A stretch of 64,000 bases of DNA from the NCBI GenBank assembly GCA_024762925.1, contig JANTGM010000018.1, positions 1-64,000 of the forward strand. Direction: 5' to 3'. The position numbers and the translations under genes were made by a program. Of this stretch, positions 33,631-47,350 are shown piece by piece. Every line of letters begins with the position of its first letter. Positions within the stretch are counted from its first letter, which is position 1. Source of the stretch: Kofleriaceae bacterium. Lineage in GTDB: Bacteria; Myxococcota_A; Polyangia; Haliangiales; Haliangiaceae. The notes beneath the pieces are model-generated. The model saw only the letters and a list, made by a program, of their open reading frames with translations, searched no databases and was not told the DNA's origin.

Positions 33631-35409
33631 ATGTCACGTACAACAAATTTATCCATTCTCTTCTCCCTTCTCTTTGCTAGTGCCGCATGTGGAGGTGGTG
33701 ACAGCAACGACAGCGCCGATGCTGGAGTCAATCCGACCTTCGATGGGGCGGTCGTCTACGATGCCGACGTTCCTGCCGATGCCGACCTTTCGCCCGACGC
33801 CGACATCACGCCCGATGCAACGCCGATCGACAACGGTATTGACGAAGCTCGTGCTGCTGCCGATGGAGCTGTCGACCTACCCATCGTCGAAGTTCTCGTG
33901 ACCTACCTCAAGCCTGGCATCGGAAACGATCCTGCCGGCTTCTTTGTGCAAGCAGAAACAACGGGCCCTGCGCTCTTTGTTGCCATCGACCCAGCCGGTC
34001 TCACAACACCTGTCGCTGTTGGCGACCTCGTTAGCTTCACGATAACGGAGATGGACACAACAGGCTCTCTTCGCCAGGCAACCGCCATAAGCGGTGAGAC
34101 AATCATCAGCTCTAACAACGACATCACGGGGCTTGTGCAAGACGTGTCGGCAGCTGCGGATCTTGTCACAGCCCTCGACGATTACGAGAGCGAACTCGTC
34201 ATTGCGCAACTCACAGTCACCGAAGCATTTGGTGGTGCTGGATCAGGATTTACTGCAGGAGTGGTTGAGACCGCTGCGGTTACGGCAAACGCCGATCTTC
34301 GCCTGCGACTGCCAGCGACCCTGCAAGCGTCGATCGGTCTGGTACCAACGTGTACGGCAACGCTGGCTGCAACTCCGGTCTGGCGTTTCAACACGGCAGC
34401 GCAGCTCTCCGCCTTTGATGCTTCAGAGCTCACCGCAACCTGTCCTCCTCCACTTGTCGTGGAAGCCGTTGCTGTTTCCACAACAGAAGTCACGATTGAG
34501 TTCGATCGCGGAATCGATGCGGGAAGTCTTGTTGCCGACGGTTCTCAATTCACCTTTGACAACGGCCTGGTTGCAAGTGCCGCCACAGTTGATGGCCGTG
34601 TGGTGACGATTACGACAGGCACCATGCTCGATGGCAACGACTACACGACCACCATCGCAGATACGCTGCTCGATGTTCTAGGTACCGCTGTTGCGGCGCC
34701 CAACAATACCGCACTCTTCACGAGCCTCGCTGCTGACGAAACGGTTTGCGACGACGGCCTCGACGATGACAGCGATGGCTTCTTCGACTGCCAAGATGCC
34801 GCTTGTGCTGGTGACGTGGCATGCAACTTCCTCTCGCAGCTCTACCTTTGGGAAGTGGATGCCGACACCCCAGGCACCGATGAAGCCGAGTTCATTGAGA
34901 TTTGGAACAACACCGCTGCAGAAATCGACCTCGCTGCTGATGGCTACTACATCGTGGCAGTGAACGGCAGCGACGACCTCTCGTCAGATGCCTACGCCCT
35001 TTCTGGAACGGTCGCCGCTGACGGACTCTTCGTGGTTGGCTCCGACGATGTAACTCTGGCCGCCGACCTCGCTGTAGGTAGCACGAACCTCTTCCAGAAC
35101 GGCGCTGATGGCATCTTGCTTGTCCAGTGCCAAACCTGCACCGACGCAGCAACGGATTTCCCAACGGACACCGATGTTGGAACAGCTGCAACGTTCACAA
35201 GCGCTGGTGCGCAGACCGCCACGAAGATCGATGGCATGGCGTATGACACCAACGACAACGACGATGCAGGCCTGCTTGCCGCAGTCCTACAAGCGCTGCA
35301 GTTCAACGAGGACGCGAACGGCGCCAAGGATACCGAGTCGAACAATCGCACGTCGCTCTCGGGCTGGAACGCACTGCCCGCAAATCCAAAGCTCTCGGGC
35401 GTCGAGTAA
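33631..35409 (+). CDS. Large lipoprotein with LTD-like domain
   Basis: 592 residues. Signal peptide MSRTTNLSILFSLLFASAAC with lipobox, followed by an Asp/Ala repeat linker (ADVPADADLSPDADITPDA), a mark of myxobacterial surface proteins. Beta-rich parts follow: an Ig/fibronectin-like segment at about 290-360 (VVEAVAVSTTEVTIEFDRGI), an EF-hand-like DGLDDDSDGFFDC near 370 that may bind calcium, and a lamin-tail-like domain from about 405 (LYLWEVDADTPGTDEAEFIE, IWNNTAAEIDLAADGYYIV). LTD domains are often linked to secreted nucleases and adhesins. TAA stop, followed by a strong terminator. Confidence 0.82.
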   Translation: MSRTTNLSILFSLLFASAACGGGDSNDSADAGVNPTFDGAVVYDADVPADADLSPDADITPDATPIDNGIDEARAAADGAVDLPIVEVLVTYLKPGIGNDPAGFFVQAETTGPALFVAIDPAGLTTPVAVGDLVSFTITEMDTTGSLRQATAISGETIISSNNDITGLVQDVSAAADLVTALDDYESELVIAQLTVTEAFGGAGSGFTAGVVETAAVTANADLRLRLPATLQASIGLVPTCTATLAATPVWRFNTAAQLSAFDASELTATCPPPLVVEAVAVSTTEVTIEFDRGIDAGSLVADGSQFTFDNGLVASAATVDGRVVTITTGTMLDGNDYTTTIADTLLDVLGTAVAAPNNTALFTSLAADETVCDDGLDDDSDGFFDCQDAACAGDVACNFLSQLYLWEVDADTPGTDEAEFIEIWNNTAAEIDLAADGYYIVAVNGSDDLSSDAYALSGTVAADGLFVVGSDDVTLAADLAVGSTNLFQNGADGILLVQCQTCTDAATDFPTDTDVGTAATFTSAGAQTATKIDGMAYDTNDNDDAGLLAAVLQALQFNEDANGAKDTESNNRTSLSGWNALPANPKLSGVE

Positions 35410-36634: not shown

Positions 36635-38026
36635 GTGGCCACCGTAATTGACAGGGACCTTATAGTCCGAGGCTCCGAGCAAATCCATGATGCCGATGTG
36701 GTGGTCAATGGTTGGGTCGAGATTTCTCAGGGGCGCCTTGTTTGCAAGAACCTCACTTGCCTGGGCTTGTCGATCGAAAGTGGCGGAGTTCTTGAATGCG
36801 AGCAGTTGCTGGCGAACTTCGTGGAAGTTGACAACTTGAACAACGATACAAGCGTGAGCGCAACGTGGGTACGAGCGCGGGTTGTTGACCTTGTGCAACT
36901 CGGCATGGAAGACGTCGTGAATCGCGGCGACGTAACCGCTGACTACTGCCAGCATTTTGGTGGCGACCTCAATCCAAGTTGGGATTACGTTCGTGGGAAA
37001 CCCGTGCTCCTCTCGGACTTCGTGGAGCCGCATCCCGATGACCCGGATGCGCCTATGTCGCTTGATGTGGGCGCAATCCGCAACGCCCTCGCTCTTGGCC
37101 AACGCGTGTTTCGCAAGCCTGGTCCTCTGCTCACGCTTGCGCCACGCGAGCTACCAAGAGAGAAGCCGACGCTCGATGAGACAGTCGATGAACTCGTCAC
37201 ATGGCTCAAAGCGAGGCCTGGGACGCAGCGCGATACGCTGGCCGCTCTTGCCGAATGGCTGCCACGCCTCGTGGTGTTGCCAAACGGGGCAAAGCTACAA
37301 GCAGGGCGCGCAATCCGTCGCTCGATAAAGTCGCCCAAGCTGCGCGAGAAACGCGACGAGTTTCTCCGAGAAGTCGGTGCAACGAAGCCCAACGTCGAAC
37401 GACATGAAGCGCCGGCAGTCGTGAGACTTGTGCGAGCTGCTCGCCCAGCTGAGTACTTGCGACCTCGGCCCGACGCGTGGCTCGACGAGTTTGCCGGTGA
37501 TACGAACCAAATTGAGGTCTACAACAATCCCGAGATCAAAGAGCTACCGGCACGTATCGCAGAGTTCGCGAGCTTGACCCGACTCGCTGTGTCTGCTCGG
37601 CTCTCACGTATCGACCCAGCCCTGGGCGTCTGCAAGCACCTTGAGAGCCTCGACCTGCGAGGCAATCAGCTAGAGATGCTGCCGGCTAGTATCGGGCAGC
37701 TGCAGAGCCTGCAGACTCTCAACGTCGAATCCAACCGCTTGTTGGCCCGCCTTCCCGACTCATTGTGCGACCTCAACAAGCTGCGCAATCTATCACTGGG
37801 TCACACGAGTATCAGCGAACTTCCCGCCAACATTGGACGCCTATCGGAGTTGCACTACCTGAGTTTGCACGGCTGCAGCCAACTGTTGGAGCTTCCCGAG
37901 TCGTTCTTCGATCTTCCCGCGCTTGGCAGCCTCTACCTTCATGGCACGCGGCTGCGGGTTGCCACACTGGACCGAATCCGCAAGACCTTTCCAGACTGTA
38001 ACTACTGGAACTTCTTCCAGGACTAA
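36635..38026 (+). CDS. Leucine-rich repeat protein
   Basis: 463 residues from a GTG at 36635. The N-terminal 110 residues resemble a beta-helix of polymer-forming type (LIVRGSEQIHDADVVVNGWV, LECEQLLANFVEV). A helical middle part follows (PTLDETVDELVTWLKA). Residues about 300-455 form at least six leucine-rich repeats: LTRLAVSARLSRI, LESLDLRGNQLEMLPASIG, LQTLNVESNRLLARLP, LRNLSLGHTSISELPANIG, LHYLSLHGCSQLLELPESF, LGSLYLHGTRLR. No signal peptide, so cytoplasmic. Probably a protein-protein interaction scaffold. TAA stop; converges on the large Sel1 gene. Confidence 0.82.
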   Translation: MATVIDRDLIVRGSEQIHDADVVVNGWVEISQGRLVCKNLTCLGLSIESGGVLECEQLLANFVEVDNLNNDTSVSATWVRARVVDLVQLGMEDVVNRGDVTADYCQHFGGDLNPSWDYVRGKPVLLSDFVEPHPDDPDAPMSLDVGAIRNALALGQRVFRKPGPLLTLAPRELPREKPTLDETVDELVTWLKARPGTQRDTLAALAEWLPRLVVLPNGAKLQAGRAIRRSIKSPKLREKRDEFLREVGATKPNVERHEAPAVVRLVRAARPAEYLRPRPDAWLDEFAGDTNQIEVYNNPEIKELPARIAEFASLTRLAVSARLSRIDPALGVCKHLESLDLRGNQLEMLPASIGQLQSLQTLNVESNRLLARLPDSLCDLNKLRNLSLGHTSISELPANIGRLSELHYLSLHGCSQLLELPESFFDLPALGSLYLHGTRLRVATLDRIRKTFPDCNYWNFFQD

Positions 38027-38057: not shown

Positions 38058-41000
38058 CTAGTCGATGTGTAGCGTCAACCCTCCCAGAGCCGCCCACGCC
38101 AGCTCAGTTTGAACGCCTTCGGTGCCGACACATTCCGAGTCACAGTACTTCCACGGAAGCCAGAGTTCGGCTAGCCCCAAAACATCGAGGGACACGCTCG
38201 AACCAAGATAGAGGGATGCACCCAGCTCGCCAGGAACTACGGTAGATGTCAGCTTCGCGGATCCACCAGCTCCATCCACTTCGATTCGGGTCCAAGGTCG
38301 CACACCCACGCCGGCATGCAGATCCAAGTTGCCTCCGTCCCGAAGAGGATCGGTGTGGATTTGCAGCATCGCTCCAAAGTCGATGGTGTCTCGAAAGGGA
38401 AATGAACGGGCACAATCCGAGGCACCACCATCACAATCGCCCCAATGAGAGAAACTCTTACGCGAGCCACCTATGACTCCCTCCAACGTTAGCAAGCCAC
38501 CCAGATGCAGCCCCAGTCGCAACTCGCCCCGTGCGCCGAAGGAGGTCGAATCGGCGCCTGCGTCCACGCCAGAGCGAAATAGCGACGAGCTCACAAAGTT
38601 TGTAACGCCACCCAGTAGTCGAACGCTCACGGGCGCGAGTCCCCCACCTGACGATGAGCGGGTCTTCGAAATGCCAGCCATGGCATTCGGCGAAGCTTCA
38701 CCAGCGCACGATCCCGAGTCCCAATGCTGACCTGGCCAGCAACACCCGCCGTCTTCCCCAGCCATGTGAATCATGCCCGGCTTCTCGCAACGGTGCGGCT
38801 CGAGGTCTGCCTTCACAACCGCTCGAGCCCCCTGCACTACGGTTGCCGTTACCATGGCACTCAAGCGGTTTGGTGCGCGAACCTCAACAGCATGCTCACC
38901 AACGACAATTCGGAAGGCGCGGTCACAGCCAAGCGTGGCCCCGACAACGTGCCCCTCTTCGCCGTCGCTTGTGCACGCAAGCACGATCCAGCCAAGCTGC
39001 GACTTTGCGTGAGTTAGCACACGCTCGAGTCCTGAACGATGAGCCTCAACCCAAGAGTCGTTTGCCGTGGCAAGCGCCTCTGATAGAAGCCGTTCTGCGC
39101 CTACGAACTTTCCCGAACCCTGATATGCGAGACCAAGTTCGGCCTGCAGCCGAGGTGAAGAGCTCTCTCGAATGGCGTCCTCCAGCACCTGTGCTGCGGC
39201 AACATCATCGCCTTTGCGGCGAAGCATTGCCGCCTTCGCGTAAAACGAATCCGCTGGTAGTGGCTCGTCGCGCACTTCCCCATCCAAGCGCTCGCATGCC
39301 GAGACAACCCCTTTGCGGCACAGCATGGCAAGCCCCGCGCACCCTTCTCCTCCGCCAGGATTGCAAGCCCTCGCGTAATGCTCAGCTGCTTTCTTTCGAT
39401 CCACCGGAGCCCTTGTTGCAATGTCTCCGGCGATTGCACACGCCGGGCCCGACTGGAGTTCACACCCACGGGTTGCCAACGTTGCGGCCAACGAACGAGA
39501 CTCTTTGCTCTGACGCCCAAGCAGCTCAGCTGCTCCACTTGCACATGCAGCAGCGTCCCCCTTGCCATTCATACAGGCGGCCTTGCGGAGAAGGCTCTCG
39601 CGCTCGTGGTTGTCTGGGGCCTCGCGTTTCAAGAGCGAAAGCCCCGAGCGGCACGCAGATGACGAGCCGGCGACACATGCGCGTTCAAAGAAGCCCAGGG
39701 CGCGCTTTGGGTCTGCAGGGATTCCATCACCATCACGCAAACGCTTTCCAGCACGCTCACACGATGGAAAATGCTCAGCCTCGCATGCGAAGTCGAGCCG
39801 CTCGATGTCAACCACCTCGGCCTTGCTTGCGTTCCTTTTTGCGCGTTCAAGCTTGGCCTTCAGGGCAGCAGCTTCGCGCTTCTCTTGGGCGATACGTGCA
39901 CGCTCAGCTTCGGCGCGCTTTGCTTCGGCCCGCTTGCTGGCAGCTTGTTGGCGGGCTTCTTCCCGTTGAGCCTCAATCCGCTTCGCGGCCGCGGCACGTT
40001 GCGCCTTTGCTTTGGCCTCGCGCTTTCGCTTTGCCTCCGCTTCACGAATCTTTGCATCCTTGATGGCTTGTAAGAGTTTCTCCTCCCGCGCCTTTGCCTT
40101 CTCTCTAGCAGCGGCCGCTTCAGCAGCGAGCGTTTCCGCACGGTGACGCTGTAGTGCTTCGCGCTCTTCTGCGGCCTTGCGAGCGGCCGCTTCCCGAGCA
40201 GCAGCCTTCTCGGCCGCCTTGCGAGCGGCCGCTTCCCGGGCAGCAGCCTTCTCCGCGGCCTTGCGAGCGGCCGCTTCTCGCGCGGCAATCCTCTCGGCTT
40301 TTCGCTTCTCCTCGGCGTCACGAGCTTCCGCTTGCTTGCGAGCCTCGGCCTCGCGCTCGGCGGCGGCTTTTGCGCGCTTGCGGGCCTCAGCTTCTCGCAC
40401 AGCAGCAGCTTCCGCTGCCTTCCTTGCACGAGCCTCGCGGGCGGCAGCCTGCTCTCGCGCTGCCCGCTCCTTGGCTTCTGCCTGCTCTGCTCGGCGGCGC
40501 TGCTCGGCTTCACGTGCCTGGGCTCGGCGCCGAAGCGATGCTTCCTTTGCTGCAGCGGCGACCGCAGTAGCACGCGCTGCAGCAGCCTCTTCGCTTTGAC
40601 GACGTGCCTCCGCTTCAAGTTCGGCAGCGGCCTTCGCCAGCTTGCGAGCTTGTTCCGCTCGTTCCTCGGCTTGCTTGCGAGCTGCGGCTTCCTGTTTTGC
40701 GGCAAGTGCTGCCTTCTTGCGCGCAGCCTCCCGAGCTACCACAAGACGTTTCTGCTCGGCCTCGCGCGCTGCCGCCTCTTCCGCACGTGCACGGTGTTCG
40801 GCCTCGCGAGCTTCGGCATCCACCTTTGCCTTGGCAAGACGCTCCGCACGACTGCGTTGCTCACGTTCTCGCTGTTCCGCTTGCAGCCGCGCCGCCTTCT
40901 GATTGGCGGCGATTTTTAGGGCTTCGCGAGCCTTCAAAGCGCTTGCCTGAGCTTGGGCGAGCGCGGCAGATTCTCGGGCAGCAGACTCATCCGCATTTTT

Positions 41001-42986
41001 CTTAGACGCTGCGAGACCTGCGAGTGCCTTCTCAGCGCGAGCTCGGATGCGAGTTTCCTTCAGTGCTGCCTGTTTCGCTTGCTTCTTCGATTTCGCCTCC
41101 TTGGCTGCGGCGAGTAGGGCCAAGCGCTTGGCCTTTGATTCTCGAAGCGCTGCTTGCTTAGCCTCCTCTTGAGCCGAGGCCTCACCTTCGCGGGCACGTT
41201 TCCGTGCTTCCGCCTCTCGAATGCCGGCAGCCTTCGCTTTCCCAAGCGCTATCGATTCTCGCTCGGAGGCTTGCATGGCTTCTTGGTGGGCCGCCGACTC
41301 GCGAGCCAATGCCTCCTCGGCTCGCTTGCGCTGGGCAGCCTCCTTTGCCGCAGCTTGGGCTGCACGCGCAAGCGCTTGGGTCTCTCGACGCCTGGCTGCC
41401 GCCTCGTTCTTCTCCGCCGTGCGCTGTCGAACCTCTGCCTGTTTTCGTGCCTCCTCTGCGTGCTGGGCGCTCATTGCCGCTTGGCGTGCGCGAGTTTCCG
41501 CCTGCCGTTGCGCGGTTTCTGCAGCAACCACAGATGCGACCTCGGGAGACACTGATGCCGAGTCCTCACTCGTACTCGATGCACCTGCGTTTTCAGAAGT
41601 ACTCGCAGCTCCAGAAATATTCGCAGTTCCTGAAGAGGACTGAGAATTGTCTTGCTGTGACGCGGGGCTCGTCTCCCTGGCGCGAGCAGCTGCCACCAGC
41701 GCATCTGTGGACTCACCCCCAGGAAGCTGTACGCAGGCATTGCGGTCGCCGAGCTCACACGCGCGGCGATACAGCGGCTCACGCATCTTTAGGGCAACGA
41801 TTGGAGCAAGAGCCGAACAGGCGAGCACTTCCCCTGCTTGGCAGAGCGGCCGGAGGATGGGCTCGGCCCGGCGAACTCCTCGGGGCGTTGCTGCCGCGAG
41901 GCCTATCCGCAGACACCCTTTCTCCCCACCAATTCCCGCCTTGCACGCGCGCTCAAGCCAGCGCTCGGCTTGCGCGGAGTTGGTCCTCACACCACGCCCC
42001 AATCTGTAATCCTGAGAAACACGAAGACAGGCGGCACCGTTTCCCTGGCGGCAACTGCGTTGGTTGGCCACGCGCGCCTTGCCAAAGAAGCGCCGGGCGG
42101 CCCTGGCGTCACTTTGTGCAGTGTACAACTCGCCGAGTTCCGTGCACTTGGGAGCAAGTTTCGCCTTGCACGCCAACAGCAGCTTCGGCGCGGCACCTTC
42201 CGCGTCACCACGGCGCATAAGAATACTTCCGAGTTCTCCGCAAGACAGGGCATCTCCGCCACCGCATGCTTTCTTGTAGGCATCCTCCGCTTGCTTTGTG
42301 TCGGCGCCGGGAAAGCCTCCGAGTTGATGCAATTGCCCAAGTGCCGCACACGCCCGTGCATTCGATGCCTCACAGCCACGGCTGAGAAGGGGCAGCGCGC
42401 CAGCCACATCGGTTGCGGCCAGCAGTCGCCCCGAATTTCCGCAACTCTTTTCGTCGTCTTGCTTGCAACCTTTCTCGTAGAGTTCTTGTGCTACGGCCAG
42501 CTCCGTTGCTTCAACCAATTCCCCCACGCGGCGACATCCAGCACCGTCGCCAAGCTCGCAGCCTTTCTCAAAGTCTCGACGCGCTTTTTGCCTGTCCAGC
42601 TTTCGGCGTGATTGCATGAGTACTCCATGCAAAGTGCAAGCAGGCCCGACATCTCGTTCACAAGCTGCCTTCAGTGTCCTGCGTGCGACTCGATTCCGGC
42701 GAAGTCCCGGCCGTTGCGTCGCAAGGTCGGCCGCAGCTTCGCAGGATGCTTGCTCTCCATTCTCACAACCGCGGACGTACAGTAAGAGCGCATTTGGGTA
42801 GCTCTTTGCCTGCTCCTTCGTTTTCCCTTCGGCATGACACTCGCCAAAGGTCCCATCCGCGCAACGTTGCGCCCAGACCTCAGCTGTCAAAGCCGGTAGC
42901 ACAATGGCTATGACCAGAATACGGAGCAGTGCCCGGGAGCCAAGAGAGTCATTCCAGAGCAAAGAGTCCTCGAACATTGCACGCAT
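38058..42986 (-). CDS. Giant envelope protein: Sel1 repeats, long coiled coil and C-terminal barrel-like domain
   Basis: 1642 residues. A signal peptide (VIAIVLPALTAEVWAQRC) is followed by about ten Cys-containing Sel1-like repeats to residue 450 (ACELGDRNACVQL-type units), a Ser/Thr linker, and a charged Ala/Glu/Lys/Arg coiled coil at about 490-1062, resembling TolA-like spacers. A second Sel1 block (about 1065-1200), a TPR-like stretch and a PEGA-like segment come next. The last about 190 residues look like an outer-membrane beta domain (LRLLGGVTNFVSSSLF, FGARGELRLGLHLGG, AALGGLTLHID). A 570-residue helix could span over 80 nm if extended. The Met at 42986 is the best start before the signal peptide. 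Function unknown. Confidence 0.82.
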   Translation of the reverse strand: MRAMFEDSLLWNDSLGSRALLRILVIAIVLPALTAEVWAQRCADGTFGECHAEGKTKEQAKSYPNALLLYVRGCENGEQASCEAAADLATQRPGLRRNRVARRTLKAACERDVGPACTLHGVLMQSRRKLDRQKARRDFEKGCELGDGAGCRRVGELVEATELAVAQELYEKGCKQDDEKSCGNSGRLLAATDVAGALPLLSRGCEASNARACAALGQLHQLGGFPGADTKQAEDAYKKACGGGDALSCGELGSILMRRGDAEGAAPKLLLACKAKLAPKCTELGELYTAQSDARAARRFFGKARVANQRSCRQGNGAACLRVSQDYRLGRGVRTNSAQAERWLERACKAGIGGEKGCLRIGLAAATPRGVRRAEPILRPLCQAGEVLACSALAPIVALKMREPLYRRACELGDRNACVQLPGGESTDALVAAARARETSPASQQDNSQSSSGTANISGAASTSENAGASSTSEDSASVSPEVASVVAAETAQRQAETRARQAAMSAQHAEEARKQAEVRQRTAEKNEAAARRRETQALARAAQAAAKEAAQRKRAEEALARESAAHQEAMQASERESIALGKAKAAGIREAEARKRAREGEASAQEEAKQAALRESKAKRLALLAAAKEAKSKKQAKQAALKETRIRARAEKALAGLAASKKNADESAARESAALAQAQASALKAREALKIAANQKAARLQAEQREREQRSRAERLAKAKVDAEAREAEHRARAEEAAAREAEQKRLVVAREAARKKAALAAKQEAAARKQAEERAEQARKLAKAAAELEAEARRQSEEAAAARATAVAAAAKEASLRRRAQAREAEQRRRAEQAEAKERAAREQAAAREARARKAAEAAAVREAEARKRAKAAAEREAEARKQAEARDAEEKRKAERIAAREAAARKAAEKAAAREAAARKAAEKAAAREAAARKAAEEREALQRHRAETLAAEAAAAREKAKAREEKLLQAIKDAKIREAEAKRKREAKAKAQRAAAAKRIEAQREEARQQAASKRAEAKRAEAERARIAQEKREAAALKAKLERAKRNASKAEVVDIERLDFACEAEHFPSCERAGKRLRDGDGIPADPKRALGFFERACVAGSSSACRSGLSLLKREAPDNHERESLLRKAACMNGKGDAAACASGAAELLGRQSKESRSLAATLATRGCELQSGPACAIAGDIATRAPVDRKKAAEHYARACNPGGGEGCAGLAMLCRKGVVSACERLDGEVRDEPLPADSFYAKAAMLRRKGDDVAAAQVLEDAIRESSSPRLQAELGLAYQGSGKFVGAERLLSEALATANDSWVEAHRSGLERVLTHAKSQLGWIVLACTSDGEEGHVVGATLGCDRAFRIVVGEHAVEVRAPNRLSAMVTATVVQGARAVVKADLEPHRCEKPGMIHMAGEDGGCCWPGQHWDSGSCAGEASPNAMAGISKTRSSSGGGLAPVSVRLLGGVTNFVSSSLFRSGVDAGADSTSFGARGELRLGLHLGGLLTLEGVIGGSRKSFSHWGDCDGGASDCARSFPFRDTIDFGAMLQIHTDPLRDGGNLDLHAGVGVRPWTRIEVDGAGGSAKLTSTVVPGELGASLYLGSSVSLDVLGLAELWLPWKYCDSECVGTEGVQTELAWAALGGLTLHID
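40171..40296 (-). repeat. 42-bp tandem coding repeat, three copies
   Basis: Three adjacent 42-bp units (40171-40212, 40213-40254, 40255-40296) inside the coiled coil of the giant gene, each encoding Glu-Lys-Ala-Ala-Ala-Arg-Glu-Ala-Ala-Ala-Arg-Lys-Ala-Ala or a close variant. Units differ at only a few bases, the mark of recent duplication. The 14-residue unit keeps the coiled-coil heptad phase, so copy changes would lengthen or shorten the rod. Confidence 0.88.
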
Positions 42987-43219
42987 GTCTGTAATGGTCG
43001 CACGAGACCTCCACCAACAGCCAAGGAGAGAGAGGCTTTCTTTTGCCTTTGCACGAAGATCTCTGTCTGCGAAAAACACTTACACGAAGACACACACATC
43101 TACGTCGCGCCGAGCGCAGCTCTCAAAGCGCAAAGACCGTTCCGAGCAATGACGTTGCGCTATCGTTGCACAAAAAGCTCGCATGCAGGCCGAGTGATTC
43201 GACCATCCCAATAGAACGT

Positions 43220-44725
43220 CTACCTATCGAGTGCCGCACGCACCCGAGCTGCGAGTTGTTCTGGCGTGAACGGTTTGCGAAGAAGATCGACCTCGTCATC
43301 ACCAAGAGTGGTGAGTTCCTCTGCAGCGTACCCCGACATAAAGAGCACCTTTGGCTCGTGCCCTTCTGCATGTAGTTGCTCGATCATGGCGGCACCGCTC
43401 ATCTCTGGCATTCGTACATCAGTAACAATCAAGTCAAAAGCGCCGGGATCCTGGCCAACTGCCAGTGCAAGGCCCTCTCGCCCGTTGCGAGCGATCGTCA
43501 CTTGGTAGCCAAACTCCTTCAAGTTGCGTTCGACAAGTGAGAGTATCGTCGGTTCATCTTCCACAACCAGAATCCGTTCATCACCACCATAGGCAGTGCC
43601 TTGAGAGACAGGTTTGGTGGTGGTCTCGATCTTGTCTTCGCTCACAGGGACAAAGAGATTCACCGTAGTTCCCTCGTCTACTTTGGATGTAAGCGAAGAA
43701 TGCCCACCGCATTGCTTGATGATGCCGTAGACGGTGGAGAGCCCAAAGCCGGTTCCGCTCCCGAGAGGCTTGGATGTGTAGAATGGATCAAAAGCGCGAC
43801 GCTGACACTCCGCATCCATCCCAACACCGCTGTCTCGGACTCGTAGGCGAGCAAAGTCTCCCATCGGCAATTCGCCAGGGGCCACCCGATCGCGGGTCAG
43901 CGAAATCTCCAGAGTGCCGCCCTCAGGCATGGCGTCACGCGCATTGCTCGCCAAGTTAAGAAGCACTTGGTCAAATTGGCTGGGATTGATTCGCACATAG
44001 ACTTCCTGTGCCCAAGCCACTTCGAGACGAATGTCTTCACCAATGATTCGTCGAAGCAGCGGCGCTATCGCATCGAGCGAACGGCCGAGTCCAATGACCT
44101 CACTTGCTGGAGGCTGCGTGCGGCTAAATGCCATGAGCTGCTCAACGAGAGCGGCCGCTCTCTCGCTTGCCTCACGAATCTCGCCGATAGACTGCAGAGT
44201 CACCGGGCCATCGTTGACTCGCTCAAGAAGCGAACAATTCCCAAAGATGGCGACAAGGAGATTGTTGAAGTCGTGAGCAATGCCTCCGGCCAGCTTGCCA
44301 ATGGCTTGCATCTTTTGCGACTGCCGCAGTTCCTCCTCAAGAGACCAGCGCTCGCTCAGGTCACGCCACACGACGTGGATGATGGAGGTGTCACCTTCAT
44401 CGATGACGGTGAGCAGGACCTCCGCGGGAAACACCTCACCATCGAGCCGCTTGTGCTGCCATTCGAAGCGATGACTCCCCTTGGCTTTTGCCAACGCCAT
44501 CATCTCGTTTGCCTTCTCGAAGGAGTCCCGCCCATCAGCCTGTTTTTGGGGCGATAGCTCCGAGGGATGTGTCTGCAATACCTCCTCGCGACTTGAACAC
44601 CGCAACATCGCGACGGCTGCAGCGTTGCATTCTACAAATGTCTCCCCTTCGATGATCAGACTGGCATCCGCAGAACGCTCGAAAAGCTGTTGGTACCGGT
44701 CCCTCTCCGAATCCCTATCCCGCAT
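43220..44725 (-). CDS. Hybrid sensor histidine kinase/response regulator
   Basis: 501 residues. A PAS domain at about 10-125 is followed by HisKA with His151 (GGIAHDFNNLL), a HATPase at about 255-360 with N box NLASNARDA, G1 DSGVGMD and G2 GSGTGFGLS, and a C-terminal receiver at about 383-500 with Asp436 (VTDVRMP) and Lys484 as switch residues. No transmembrane segment, so a soluble cytoplasmic sensor. The frame is open 88 codons upstream, but that part looks non-coding; the Met at 44725 precedes the PAS domain directly. No paired regulator gene nearby. Confidence 0.92.
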   Translation of the reverse strand: MRDRDSERDRYQQLFERSADASLIIEGETFVECNAAAVAMLRCSSREEVLQTHPSELSPQKQADGRDSFEKANEMMALAKAKGSHRFEWQHKRLDGEVFPAEVLLTVIDEGDTSIIHVVWRDLSERWSLEEELRQSQKMQAIGKLAGGIAHDFNNLLVAIFGNCSLLERVNDGPVTLQSIGEIREASERAAALVEQLMAFSRTQPPASEVIGLGRSLDAIAPLLRRIIGEDIRLEVAWAQEVYVRINPSQFDQVLLNLASNARDAMPEGGTLEISLTRDRVAPGELPMGDFARLRVRDSGVGMDAECQRRAFDPFYTSKPLGSGTGFGLSTVYGIIKQCGGHSSLTSKVDEGTTVNLFVPVSEDKIETTTKPVSQGTAYGGDERILVVEDEPTILSLVERNLKEFGYQVTIARNGREGLALAVGQDPGAFDLIVTDVRMPEMSGAAMIEQLHAEGHEPKVLFMSGYAAEELTTLGDDEVDLLRKPFTPEQLAARVRAALDR

Positions 44726-45085
44726 CGTGCGTTCAAATATACCCCAACCCTCGAAGAAACGGATGAAGGCTAGTGCGTGATTCAAAGAGAGATAAACTCT
44801 TATGAGAACGATGTAGGTACATACGTCACCCAGTGTTGCCGCACCATTTCGAGAGTTTTGCTCGACCGCTCGTGGAGGAAGCGGCCAATCGCGCCTTTCC
44901 GCACATCCAAGTTCTGCACCACGCCTTTGTGCACCTCCAAGTTTCTGCGCAAAAAATCCTGCGAATTCTTTGAATACCAGCGCTCGCAAGCAGTTTCAGA
45001 GGGATGTCGGTCACGACACTGTCGGTGTGGTAACTTTTTTCACGGTTGTGCTTCGAGAAGTGACCTGGCGTGCTAGTTTGGGTCA
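44726..45085. other. Intergenic region between histidine kinase and Gly-rich lipoprotein
   Basis: 360 bases separating divergent genes. Apart from the repeat-end relic at 44770-44784 nothing clear is seen. A T-run (TTTTTT) lies about 50 bases upstream of the lipoprotein ATG. Promoters for both genes are presumably here but no strong match could be named. Confidence 0.4.
44770..44784 (+). repeat. Possible relic end of the CTAG-bounded repeat
   Basis: CTAGTGCGTGATTCA matches the left end of the dispersed repeat (CTAGTGCGCGATTCA) in 14 of 15 bases, beginning exactly with CTAG. The similarity stops after these bases, so this is at most a single decayed terminus. Confidence 0.4.
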
Positions 45086-47350
45086 ATGCGCGCAACGCAC
45101 CCTTTTTCGCACCTATTGACGGTTGTCGCACTGTTCGTTGCGGCGAGCTGCGCTTCTGGAAGCCCAGCAGGAACTTGTGAGCCTGGCGATTCAAACTGCG
45201 AAGCCGATGGCTCGGTCTCTCCCTTTGCAGACGCGGGCGCTACGAACAATGCTGATGCGGGCCCAATGCGAGGATTCGGCGAGCCATGCTCGGATCGAAG
45301 CGAGTGTGCCTCCAACTTCTGCATCCTAGTTGGCATCGGCGGTGTCTGCTCCGACTATTGCATGGATGGCATGTGCCCCGAAGGCTATGGCTGTTTTGGC
45401 GTCATTGATGTCATCGAACCAGGCGAAGTTGACAATGTTTGTGTCCCGACAAGCACGCAAATCTGCAGCCCTTGTGAGATGGATTCGGAGTGCGCAATTG
45501 TTGGCAGCGACCTCTGTCTAACGAACCAAGACGACCGTTCCTTCTGCGCCCGTGACTGCTCGACGATCAGCTGCCCAGATGGATTCACCTGCAGTGACGT
45601 CGAGGTTGAAGGCACGATGTATCAACAGTGCCTGCCAACAAGTGGAGCATGCGATTGTACGGATGCTGAGGTGGGTGCGGTAGAAGACTGCACCATCACA
45701 ACCGACTTTGGGGACTGCACAGGAACTCGAACCTGCGGAGGTGCAACGGGTTGGGAGACCTGCAATGCTCCGTCACAGACCGATGCCCCAGACGGCGCCT
45801 TTGTCGACGACAACTGCGACGGTATCGATGGCGATCTCAATGGTGCGATCTTTGTGGCCACCAACGGAGGAACCGATGCCTCGACGTGTGGTCTCACCTA
45901 CACTGATCCGTGCGCGACCATAAGCTTTGGTATCGTTCGCGCCCTGCAAGCTGCTCGAGGCGAACTCTACGTCCAGGCTGGCGACTACAATGAGGTAGTC
46001 GTTTTGGTGAATGGCATCGACATCTTTGGTGGCTTTGATGCGAACTGGCAGCGCGATGTGCACACCGACTCCGAGCATCGAGTCACGATCACAGGAGCAC
46101 AAGACTCCGGTACCGGGGGCGATGATGAGTTCCTAACGATCCGCGCACACAATCTCGTGGTCTCCACCACTGTTGCAGACGTTGTGATTGTCGGCCCGGA
46201 AGCCTCGGGCGCAACGCTCTTTGGTGCACGCTCGTCGTACGCCGTTCACATTGACGACGCCATCGTCGACCTCCAGCGAGTGAGCATCGTGGGCGGCAAT
46301 GGCGAGGACGCTACAAGTGGAGCTGTTGGCTTGCCGACCTCCAGTGCTGGAGCAACCTCAGCAATGCGTGGTGGAACCGGCGGCAACGCAAACGAATTCA
46401 GCACCTCGTGCAACGACAGCAGTCACGGAAATGGCGGAAGCGCGGGAACCAACTCCTGCAGTGGAACTCGCAATCCGAACGCCGGGCGAGGTGGCAACGG
46501 TGGCGAGATGGATACTGATTGTGACTGCGTCTTTGGAGTATGTACATGCGGCCCTTGCGCGGCAACTTCTGGTGATAGTGGCGCAAATGCAGCGCATACA
46601 TTTGGCACCTTGGGTCTTGGTGGCAGTGGCGGAAGCGGCGGCGGTAGCTGTGGTGTCCCCACGCCTCCAGGTCGTGATGGGCGAATTCAAAATGGCAGCG
46701 CAGGTAATGGCGCTACAGGCAACGGATTTCTAAGCGGCAACTATTGGTTCGCTCGCTCGGGTACCTCTGGTGGCGTTGGACAAAACGGTGGCGGTGGCGG
46801 CGGGGGCGGCGGAAGCGGCGGCTGTGATGATGGAATCGACTCCTACGGCGCTGGGGGCGGCGGTGGTGGTGCAGGCGGATGCGCTGCAACCTCGGCAGGC
46901 GGGGGCGGTCAAGGGGGCGGTGGCAGCTTTGGTGTCTTCGTCGCAAGTGGCAGTCTCACAGCAAGCGACTGCACAATCGCTCGAGGCACTGGCGGAGCCG
47001 GTGGAAATGGCGGAAACGGCGGACACGGCCAAGTTGGCGGTGCCGGTCGCAATGGCGGCCTTGCCAACGGCGATTCAAAAGCCGGCTCACCGGGCGGCGA
47101 TGGTGGCCATGGCGGTCATGGCGGTGGCGGCGGCGGTGGCGGTGGTGGCATCTCCGCCGGCATCTACAGCATCCAATCTACGGTCGTGCAAGACTGTGTG
47201 GTCACTGGAGGCGCAGGTGGCACCGGTGGTTCGGGAGGCGTTAGCGCACCCGTGGCACCAGTGTCGATTCGCGATGGCAACGATGGCTCACCAGGCGTAG
47301 ACGGCGAACTTGAGAGCGTGGCAGTCTGCTCCGCTGCCAGCGGTTGTTAG
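45086..47350 (+). CDS. Gly-rich (PGRS-like) surface lipoprotein
   Basis: 754 residues. Signal peptide MRATHPFSHLLTVVALFVAASC with lipobox. The N-terminal third (about 35-240) is Cys-rich with repeated disulfide modules (CSDRSECASNFC, CEMDSECAIVGSDLC). A middle part at about 250-400 has right-handed beta-helix character (ATISFGIVRALQAARGELYV). The C-terminal half is dominated by Gly-Gly-X repeats (GGNGGNGGHGQVGGAGRNGG and runs of eight or more Gly), similar in style to mycobacterial PE_PGRS or collagen-like proteins, interrupted by short beta-helix rungs such as GVFVASGSLTASDCTIARG. Probably exposed on the cell surface. TAG stop seven bases before the convergent aminotransferase gene. Confidence 0.85.
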   Translation: MRATHPFSHLLTVVALFVAASCASGSPAGTCEPGDSNCEADGSVSPFADAGATNNADAGPMRGFGEPCSDRSECASNFCILVGIGGVCSDYCMDGMCPEGYGCFGVIDVIEPGEVDNVCVPTSTQICSPCEMDSECAIVGSDLCLTNQDDRSFCARDCSTISCPDGFTCSDVEVEGTMYQQCLPTSGACDCTDAEVGAVEDCTITTDFGDCTGTRTCGGATGWETCNAPSQTDAPDGAFVDDNCDGIDGDLNGAIFVATNGGTDASTCGLTYTDPCATISFGIVRALQAARGELYVQAGDYNEVVVLVNGIDIFGGFDANWQRDVHTDSEHRVTITGAQDSGTGGDDEFLTIRAHNLVVSTTVADVVIVGPEASGATLFGARSSYAVHIDDAIVDLQRVSIVGGNGEDATSGAVGLPTSSAGATSAMRGGTGGNANEFSTSCNDSSHGNGGSAGTNSCSGTRNPNAGRGGNGGEMDTDCDCVFGVCTCGPCAATSGDSGANAAHTFGTLGLGGSGGSGGGSCGVPTPPGRDGRIQNGSAGNGATGNGFLSGNYWFARSGTSGGVGQNGGGGGGGGGSGGCDDGIDSYGAGGGGGGAGGCAATSAGGGGQGGGGSFGVFVASGSLTASDCTIARGTGGAGGNGGNGGHGQVGGAGRNGGLANGDSKAGSPGGDGGHGGHGGGGGGGGGGISAGIYSIQSTVVQDCVVTGGAGGTGGSGGVSAPVAPVSIRDGNDGSPGVDGELESVAVCSAASGC

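Follow-up and report, generated by a model that had tools for sequence, protein, structure and literature searches.

A 1,642-residue Kofleriaceae protein with a long charged rod between two Sel1 blocks and a predicted outer-membrane barrel at its C-terminus

One gene in the window (the whole 64,000-nucleotide stretch of DNA analysed here) encodes a protein of 1,642 residues that is probably exported to the periplasm and fixed to the outer membrane, where it would serve as a scaffold or tether whose long strut connects two docking blocks. The Kofleriaceae are a family of the class Polyangia in the Myxococcota. Taken singly, its modules are of known type or recur in other proteins; their order and the length of the rod are, as far as our searches show, new.

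The gene is a single open reading frame on the minus strand, 38058-42986, as originally predicted and as confirmed by the sequence and a check of its open reading frames. An alternative, longer frame opens at a GTG at 43079, and no clear ribosome-binding site was found directly 5' of 42986. We favour the start at 42986 because the signal peptide of a congeneric genome (G001) is similarly laid out. The signal peptide (residues 1-39; 42870..42986, minus strand) was recognised by inspection, in line with the original prediction, as an N-terminal hydrophobic stretch followed by a VWA/Q site, with predicted cleavage between A39 and Q40; the congener (locus L027) has the same layout with an ALA/Q site. 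A search of NCBIfam returned no match.

Upstream of the gene, on the same strand, lies a PAS-histidine kinase-receiver hybrid (43220-44989, minus strand); the corresponding place in G001 holds a CAP-domain-like gene (read by eye) and no hybrid histidine kinase, and comparing the window with G001 revealed no conserved neighbour that would point to a partner. A leucine-rich repeat protein (36635-38026, plus strand) is convergent with our gene. Two more plus-strand genes encode exported-looking proteins: one of 754 residues (45086-47350), Cys-rich in its N-terminal part, glycine-rich in its C-terminal part and lacking a Pfam match, and one at 33631-35409 with a weak lamin-tail-domain match under the curated cut-off.

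Sel1 repeats flank the rod at both ends, as had been proposed. Block 1 spans residues 42-432 (41691..42863, minus strand) and is followed by a Ser/Ala-rich linker, defined by composition (residues 433-495; 41502..41690, minus strand); block 2, with six Cys pairs, spans residues 1063-1245 (39252..39800, minus strand). Pfam Sel1 matched the protein at E = 3.1e-6, narrowly missing the curated cut-off, and the best sequence match of block 1 was Helicobacter pylori HcpC (1ouv, E = 3.3e-17), with HcpB (1klx) also matched. The AlphaFold2 model of block 2 consists of helical repeats, with pLDDT mostly 67-88, and HcpC came out on top in structural comparison (Z 14.4, rmsd 6.2, 204 aligned). Block 1 has 12 repeats with one Cys pair each (11 CX7C and one CX9C), the first Cys of successive pairs being 28-39 residues apart. 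Every Cys in the two blocks (24/24 and 12/12) belongs to a pair whose members are 8 or 10 residues apart, first to second. Such pairing exceeded that in 2000 shuffles: block 1 has 11 CX7C pairs, whereas shuffling gave 1.4 on average and 6 at most; block 2 has five, against a mean of 0.7 and a maximum of 4. Where block 1 can be compared, G001 keeps 19 of 20 Cys, and it has lost none of the 22 that lie between residue 683 and the C-terminus.

Hcp proteins stand out within the Sel1 family by disulfides between repeats, and the concave groove of HcpC-like superhelices can hold peptide tails (PMC3851747). The repeats found here fit Sel1-like helical repeats of about 36 residues, and both blocks appear to be of the disulfide-bridged Helicobacter Hcp type, the disulfides themselves being predicted. 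Of the 46 Cys in the whole protein, 36 lie in the Sel1 blocks, all paired, and none in the rod, a distribution that fits an oxidising compartment. By analogy with groove binding in HcpC-like proteins, the earlier idea that the blocks are docking sites beside the rod is a reasonable putative reading. About 1.8 kb past the end of the window (G000:C18:65848-66354, L002) lies a gene for another Sel1 protein that looks exported and has Cys pairs of the Hcp type.

The rod between the blocks (residues 496-1062; 39801..41501, minus strand) was originally described as a 570-residue coiled coil. Its length and composition stand: about 570 residues, 36% Ala with the rest mostly Glu, Arg and Lys, a net charge of +50, no Cys and no Pro. 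Gly is confined to positions 582, 588, 601 and 657, leaving 658-1073 as the longest stretch free of Gly and Pro (416 residues). The coiled coil did not stand. Across its full length the rod showed no periodicity peak at either 3.5 or 3.67 residues, and its helical hydrophobic moment fell below that of its shuffles (z about -3), more markedly in the second half. Control coils from E. coli SbcC and MukB, with boundaries that we chose ourselves, had moments at or above their shuffles, and TolA domain II fell between these controls and the rod. E/D-to-K/R pairs at i+4, on the other hand, were in excess of expectation (45 observed vs 25, z 5.5), and the rod of G001 followed the same trend. The sole exception is a local hendecad-like peak at 711-794, where some pairing of helices may occur. 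With no hydrophobic seam and a moment below shuffles, the rod does not qualify as a canonical coiled coil; a charged helix that lacks a seam describes its sequence best, and with its excess of i/i+4 pairs it fits a single alpha-helix. We also considered a regular 14-residue ladder along the rod and rejected it, since an iterated 14-residue profile found just seven units and the period is therefore local.

The length of such a helix bears on how it could lie in the cell. At 0.15 nm per residue, a straight helix of about 570 residues would measure about 84 nm, and the 416-residue stretch without Gly or Pro about 62 nm, compared with a periplasm of 327 +/- 28 angstrom, or about 33 nm, in M. xanthus (PMC9603273), whose value we used in place of one for this organism. 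A single upright helix of either length does not fit this gap, so the rod must tilt, follow the envelope or fold back. The proposal of a periplasm-spanning rod is thus not upheld, and an upright pillar is unlikely. A pillar could still be built if the rod oligomerised as a coiled coil reaching the inner membrane or peptidoglycan, with Sel1 block 1 docking there. The TolA-like composition of the rod, the barrel at the outer membrane and the hendecad-like signal at 711-794 would suit this arrangement, and hairpins could bring the rod down to a fitting length. However, the rod lacks a heptad signal and has a low moment, and its uninterrupted part alone would be roughly double the width of the M. 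xanthus periplasm (PMC9603273). We therefore regard this pillar, too, as unlikely.

A composition so biased and so highly charged might also mark low-complexity, partly disordered filler with no length requirement. The comparison with G001 argues against this. The two rods, in the single relative compared, align over 380 residues (all but the first ~190) at 69% identity with zero gaps, despite third-position differences in 153 of the 264 codons that encode identical residues; the excess of i to i+4 salt-bridge pairs also speaks against filler, which we consider quite improbable. The same alignment bears on the claim that in-frame 42-bp duplications show the rod length to be evolving. The units exist: Tandem Repeats Finder (TRF) found three in tandem, of 14 residues each, at 40174..40298 (minus strand), with an 87% match. 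The change in length was not borne out, as G001 has the same three units at the same place and, in this one congener, equal rod length over the 380 visible residues. Because the units are shared, the triplication most simply predates the split between the window's lineage and G001, although the sequences would also allow later homogenisation of the copies.

A beta-barrel-like end had been suggested for the chain, and structure prediction points the same way. The last 199 residues, folded alone by AlphaFold2 with two relatives (three sequences), gave eight strands with a mean pLDDT of 60 and a pTM of 0.58, the loops falling below 50; in a longer construct (residues 1041-1642), pLDDT in the barrel region was below 35. 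A Foldseek search with the barrel model matched OmpA (E = 2.4e-4) and NspA (E = 5.7e-4), and structural comparison gave OprF (Z 13.4, rmsd 3.5, 134 aligned), NspA (Z 13.2, rmsd 3.5, 153 aligned) and OmpA (Z 12.8, rmsd 4.0, 158 aligned); eight-stranded outer-membrane proteins thus headed both comparisons. All eight predicted strands alternate hydrophobic and polar residues, and the loops are long and short by turns. Pfam OMP_b-brl matched both the window protein and a relative (L025) below the cut-off (E = 0.086 and 0.058), and no solved structure was matched when the C-terminal unit was used in a sequence-profile search. With eight amphipathic strands folded as a barrel, at moderate model confidence, residues 1448-1642 (38061..38645, minus strand) are most likely an OmpA/NspA/OprF-like outer-membrane barrel, and the suggested tie to an outer-membrane domain gains support from this prediction.

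The barrel also bears on which side of the membrane the rest of the protein would occupy. Because the loops alternate between long and short, both ends of the barrel should face the periplasm, and the N-terminal remainder should therefore be periplasmic. A very long rod with distal repeat domains and a barrel for an anchor does look like a surface stalk, with its N-terminal parts displayed outside the cell in the manner of an adhesin. The type V translocators known so far have at least 12 strands, however, and an eight-stranded OmpA-type barrel has, to our knowledge, no room to export a passenger. Together with the loop pattern, this makes a surface stalk very unlikely.

Three modules that were absent from the layout first described separate Sel1 block 2 from the barrel. 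The first comprises two or three pairs of TPR-like helices (residues 1246-1333; 38988..39251, minus strand), recognised from weak Pfam TPR matches, AlphaFold2 helices with pLDDT of about 80 and homology to TPR-PEGA proteins. Next is a PEGA-like beta domain (residues 1334-1397; 38796..38987, minus strand). Pfam PEGA did not match the window protein, but the region aligns with a more distant protein (L023) that Pfam PEGA matches at E = 0.004, under the cut-off, and it has seven strands in the AlphaFold2 model. The third is a Cys-rich module that we call CCWPGQ (residues 1398-1432; 38691..38795, minus strand), defined by alignment and a class-wide search and present in 48 of 317 genomes of the class; the window's copy matches no Pfam family.

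Elsewhere (loci L011-L023) CCWPGQ stands in tandem in some proteins, and it shares a chain with a Ser/Thr kinase-like domain in L014 and with Sel1 repeats in L013. Of 13 copies compared with Pfam, a single one hit a family (Antistasin, E = 0.00026) and the other 12 had no match. The TPR-PEGA family was matched in 228 of the 317 class genomes, and two of its exported members with hydrophobic tails (L058, L062) have a Ser/Thr-kinase-like frame close by. A literature search on PEGA domains in myxobacteria found nothing.

A whole-protein scan of genome contigs found nothing, whereas the aligned C-terminal unit, used as query, retrieved L024 and L025. L024, in G001, carries the rod, Sel1 block 2 and the barrel in one frame. 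The G001 gene is split over two contigs; the other piece (L027) encodes the signal peptide followed by Sel1 block 1 and is truncated by the contig end, so the junction of block 1 with the rod is visible in the window only. L025 is the C-terminal unit alone, with its own signal peptide and without Sel1 repeats or rod, and L023 is a more distant standalone unit, also with its own signal peptide; both peptides are cut before Q, and both relatives belong to the same class. The barrel was matched in two of 377 genomes sampled from the phylum, plus G001. Searching the genus's three genomes with the rod alone gave matches in the window genome and G001 and none in the third (G002, 86% complete). One candidate for a Sel1-plus-rod relative (L030) was rejected, as its A/E/K/R-rich region is not a comparable rod. 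In our searches the full layout thus occurs in the window genome (G000) and, in two pieces, in G001, both of one genus, which agrees with the original remark that no described protein is known to have exactly this layout. An assembly artefact fusing separate genes, which a draft of 246 contigs and a repetitive rod might invite, is scarcely credible given that the separate assembly of G001 has the rod, block 2 and barrel in one frame and, on a second contig, the signal peptide with block 1. Within one genus, a compact outer-membrane unit (TPR, PEGA-like, CCWPGQ, barrel) seems to have gained a rod and two disulfide-rich blocks.

We therefore favour a scaffold or tether held at the outer membrane, which might work as follows. 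The signal peptide would direct Sec export and then be cleaved; the C-terminal barrel, eight-stranded as predicted, would insert in the outer membrane, and all parts N-terminal to it would remain periplasmic. The CCWPGQ, PEGA-like and TPR modules and Sel1 block 2 would adjoin the membrane, and the rod of about 570 residues would hold the larger block 1 far from the anchor. Disulfides, expected from Cys spacing and Hcp homology, would lock the Sel1 superhelices, whose grooves could hold partner proteins or peptides. The rod would separate the two docking sites while lying obliquely, along the envelope or folded back, and not upright across the periplasm. More tentatively, a single helix of 60-84 nm may act as a strut or ruler along the periplasm, setting the distance between two disulfide-locked docking blocks with an anchor in the outer membrane. 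If so, this would be a bacterial periplasmic rod far longer than the gap that contains it, and a test of helices as envelope spacers outside TolA.

Several known systems each resemble a part of the protein. Helicobacter HcpB and HcpC share the exported Sel1-like repeats with one Cys pair per repeat, but consist of these repeats alone, without rod, TPR, PEGA or barrel. Class TPR-PEGA proteins have the same TPR-like and PEGA-like unit, although most of those that we read end in hydrophobic, probably membrane-helical tails and not in a barrel. Single alpha-helix domains share the excess of E/D-to-K/R pairs at i+4 and the lack of a seam; the rod is far richer in Ala, its E/K/R content being about 43% against up to 80% quoted for such domains (PMC5812594). 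The original comparison with TolA holds for composition, but not for anchor or architecture. TolA is held by an inner-membrane helix that is not cleaved; its domain II has 110-335 residues, and its domain III is globular (PMC12204202, PMC10666116). Its domain II resembles our rod as an Ala/Lys/Glu-rich helical periplasmic rod, and neither has a hydrophobic seam. The window protein has neither the SHLS helix nor domain III: its N-terminal hydrophobic stretch lacks the SHLS motif and leads into a signal-peptidase-like site and Sel1 repeats, and its one membrane anchor, the barrel, is at the other end. OmpA, OprF and NspA share the eight-stranded fold predicted for the last ~195 residues, which have no sequence family match above cut-off. 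In OmpA and OprF, however, the barrel comes first and the periplasmic part follows it, an order that is reversed in the protein described here.
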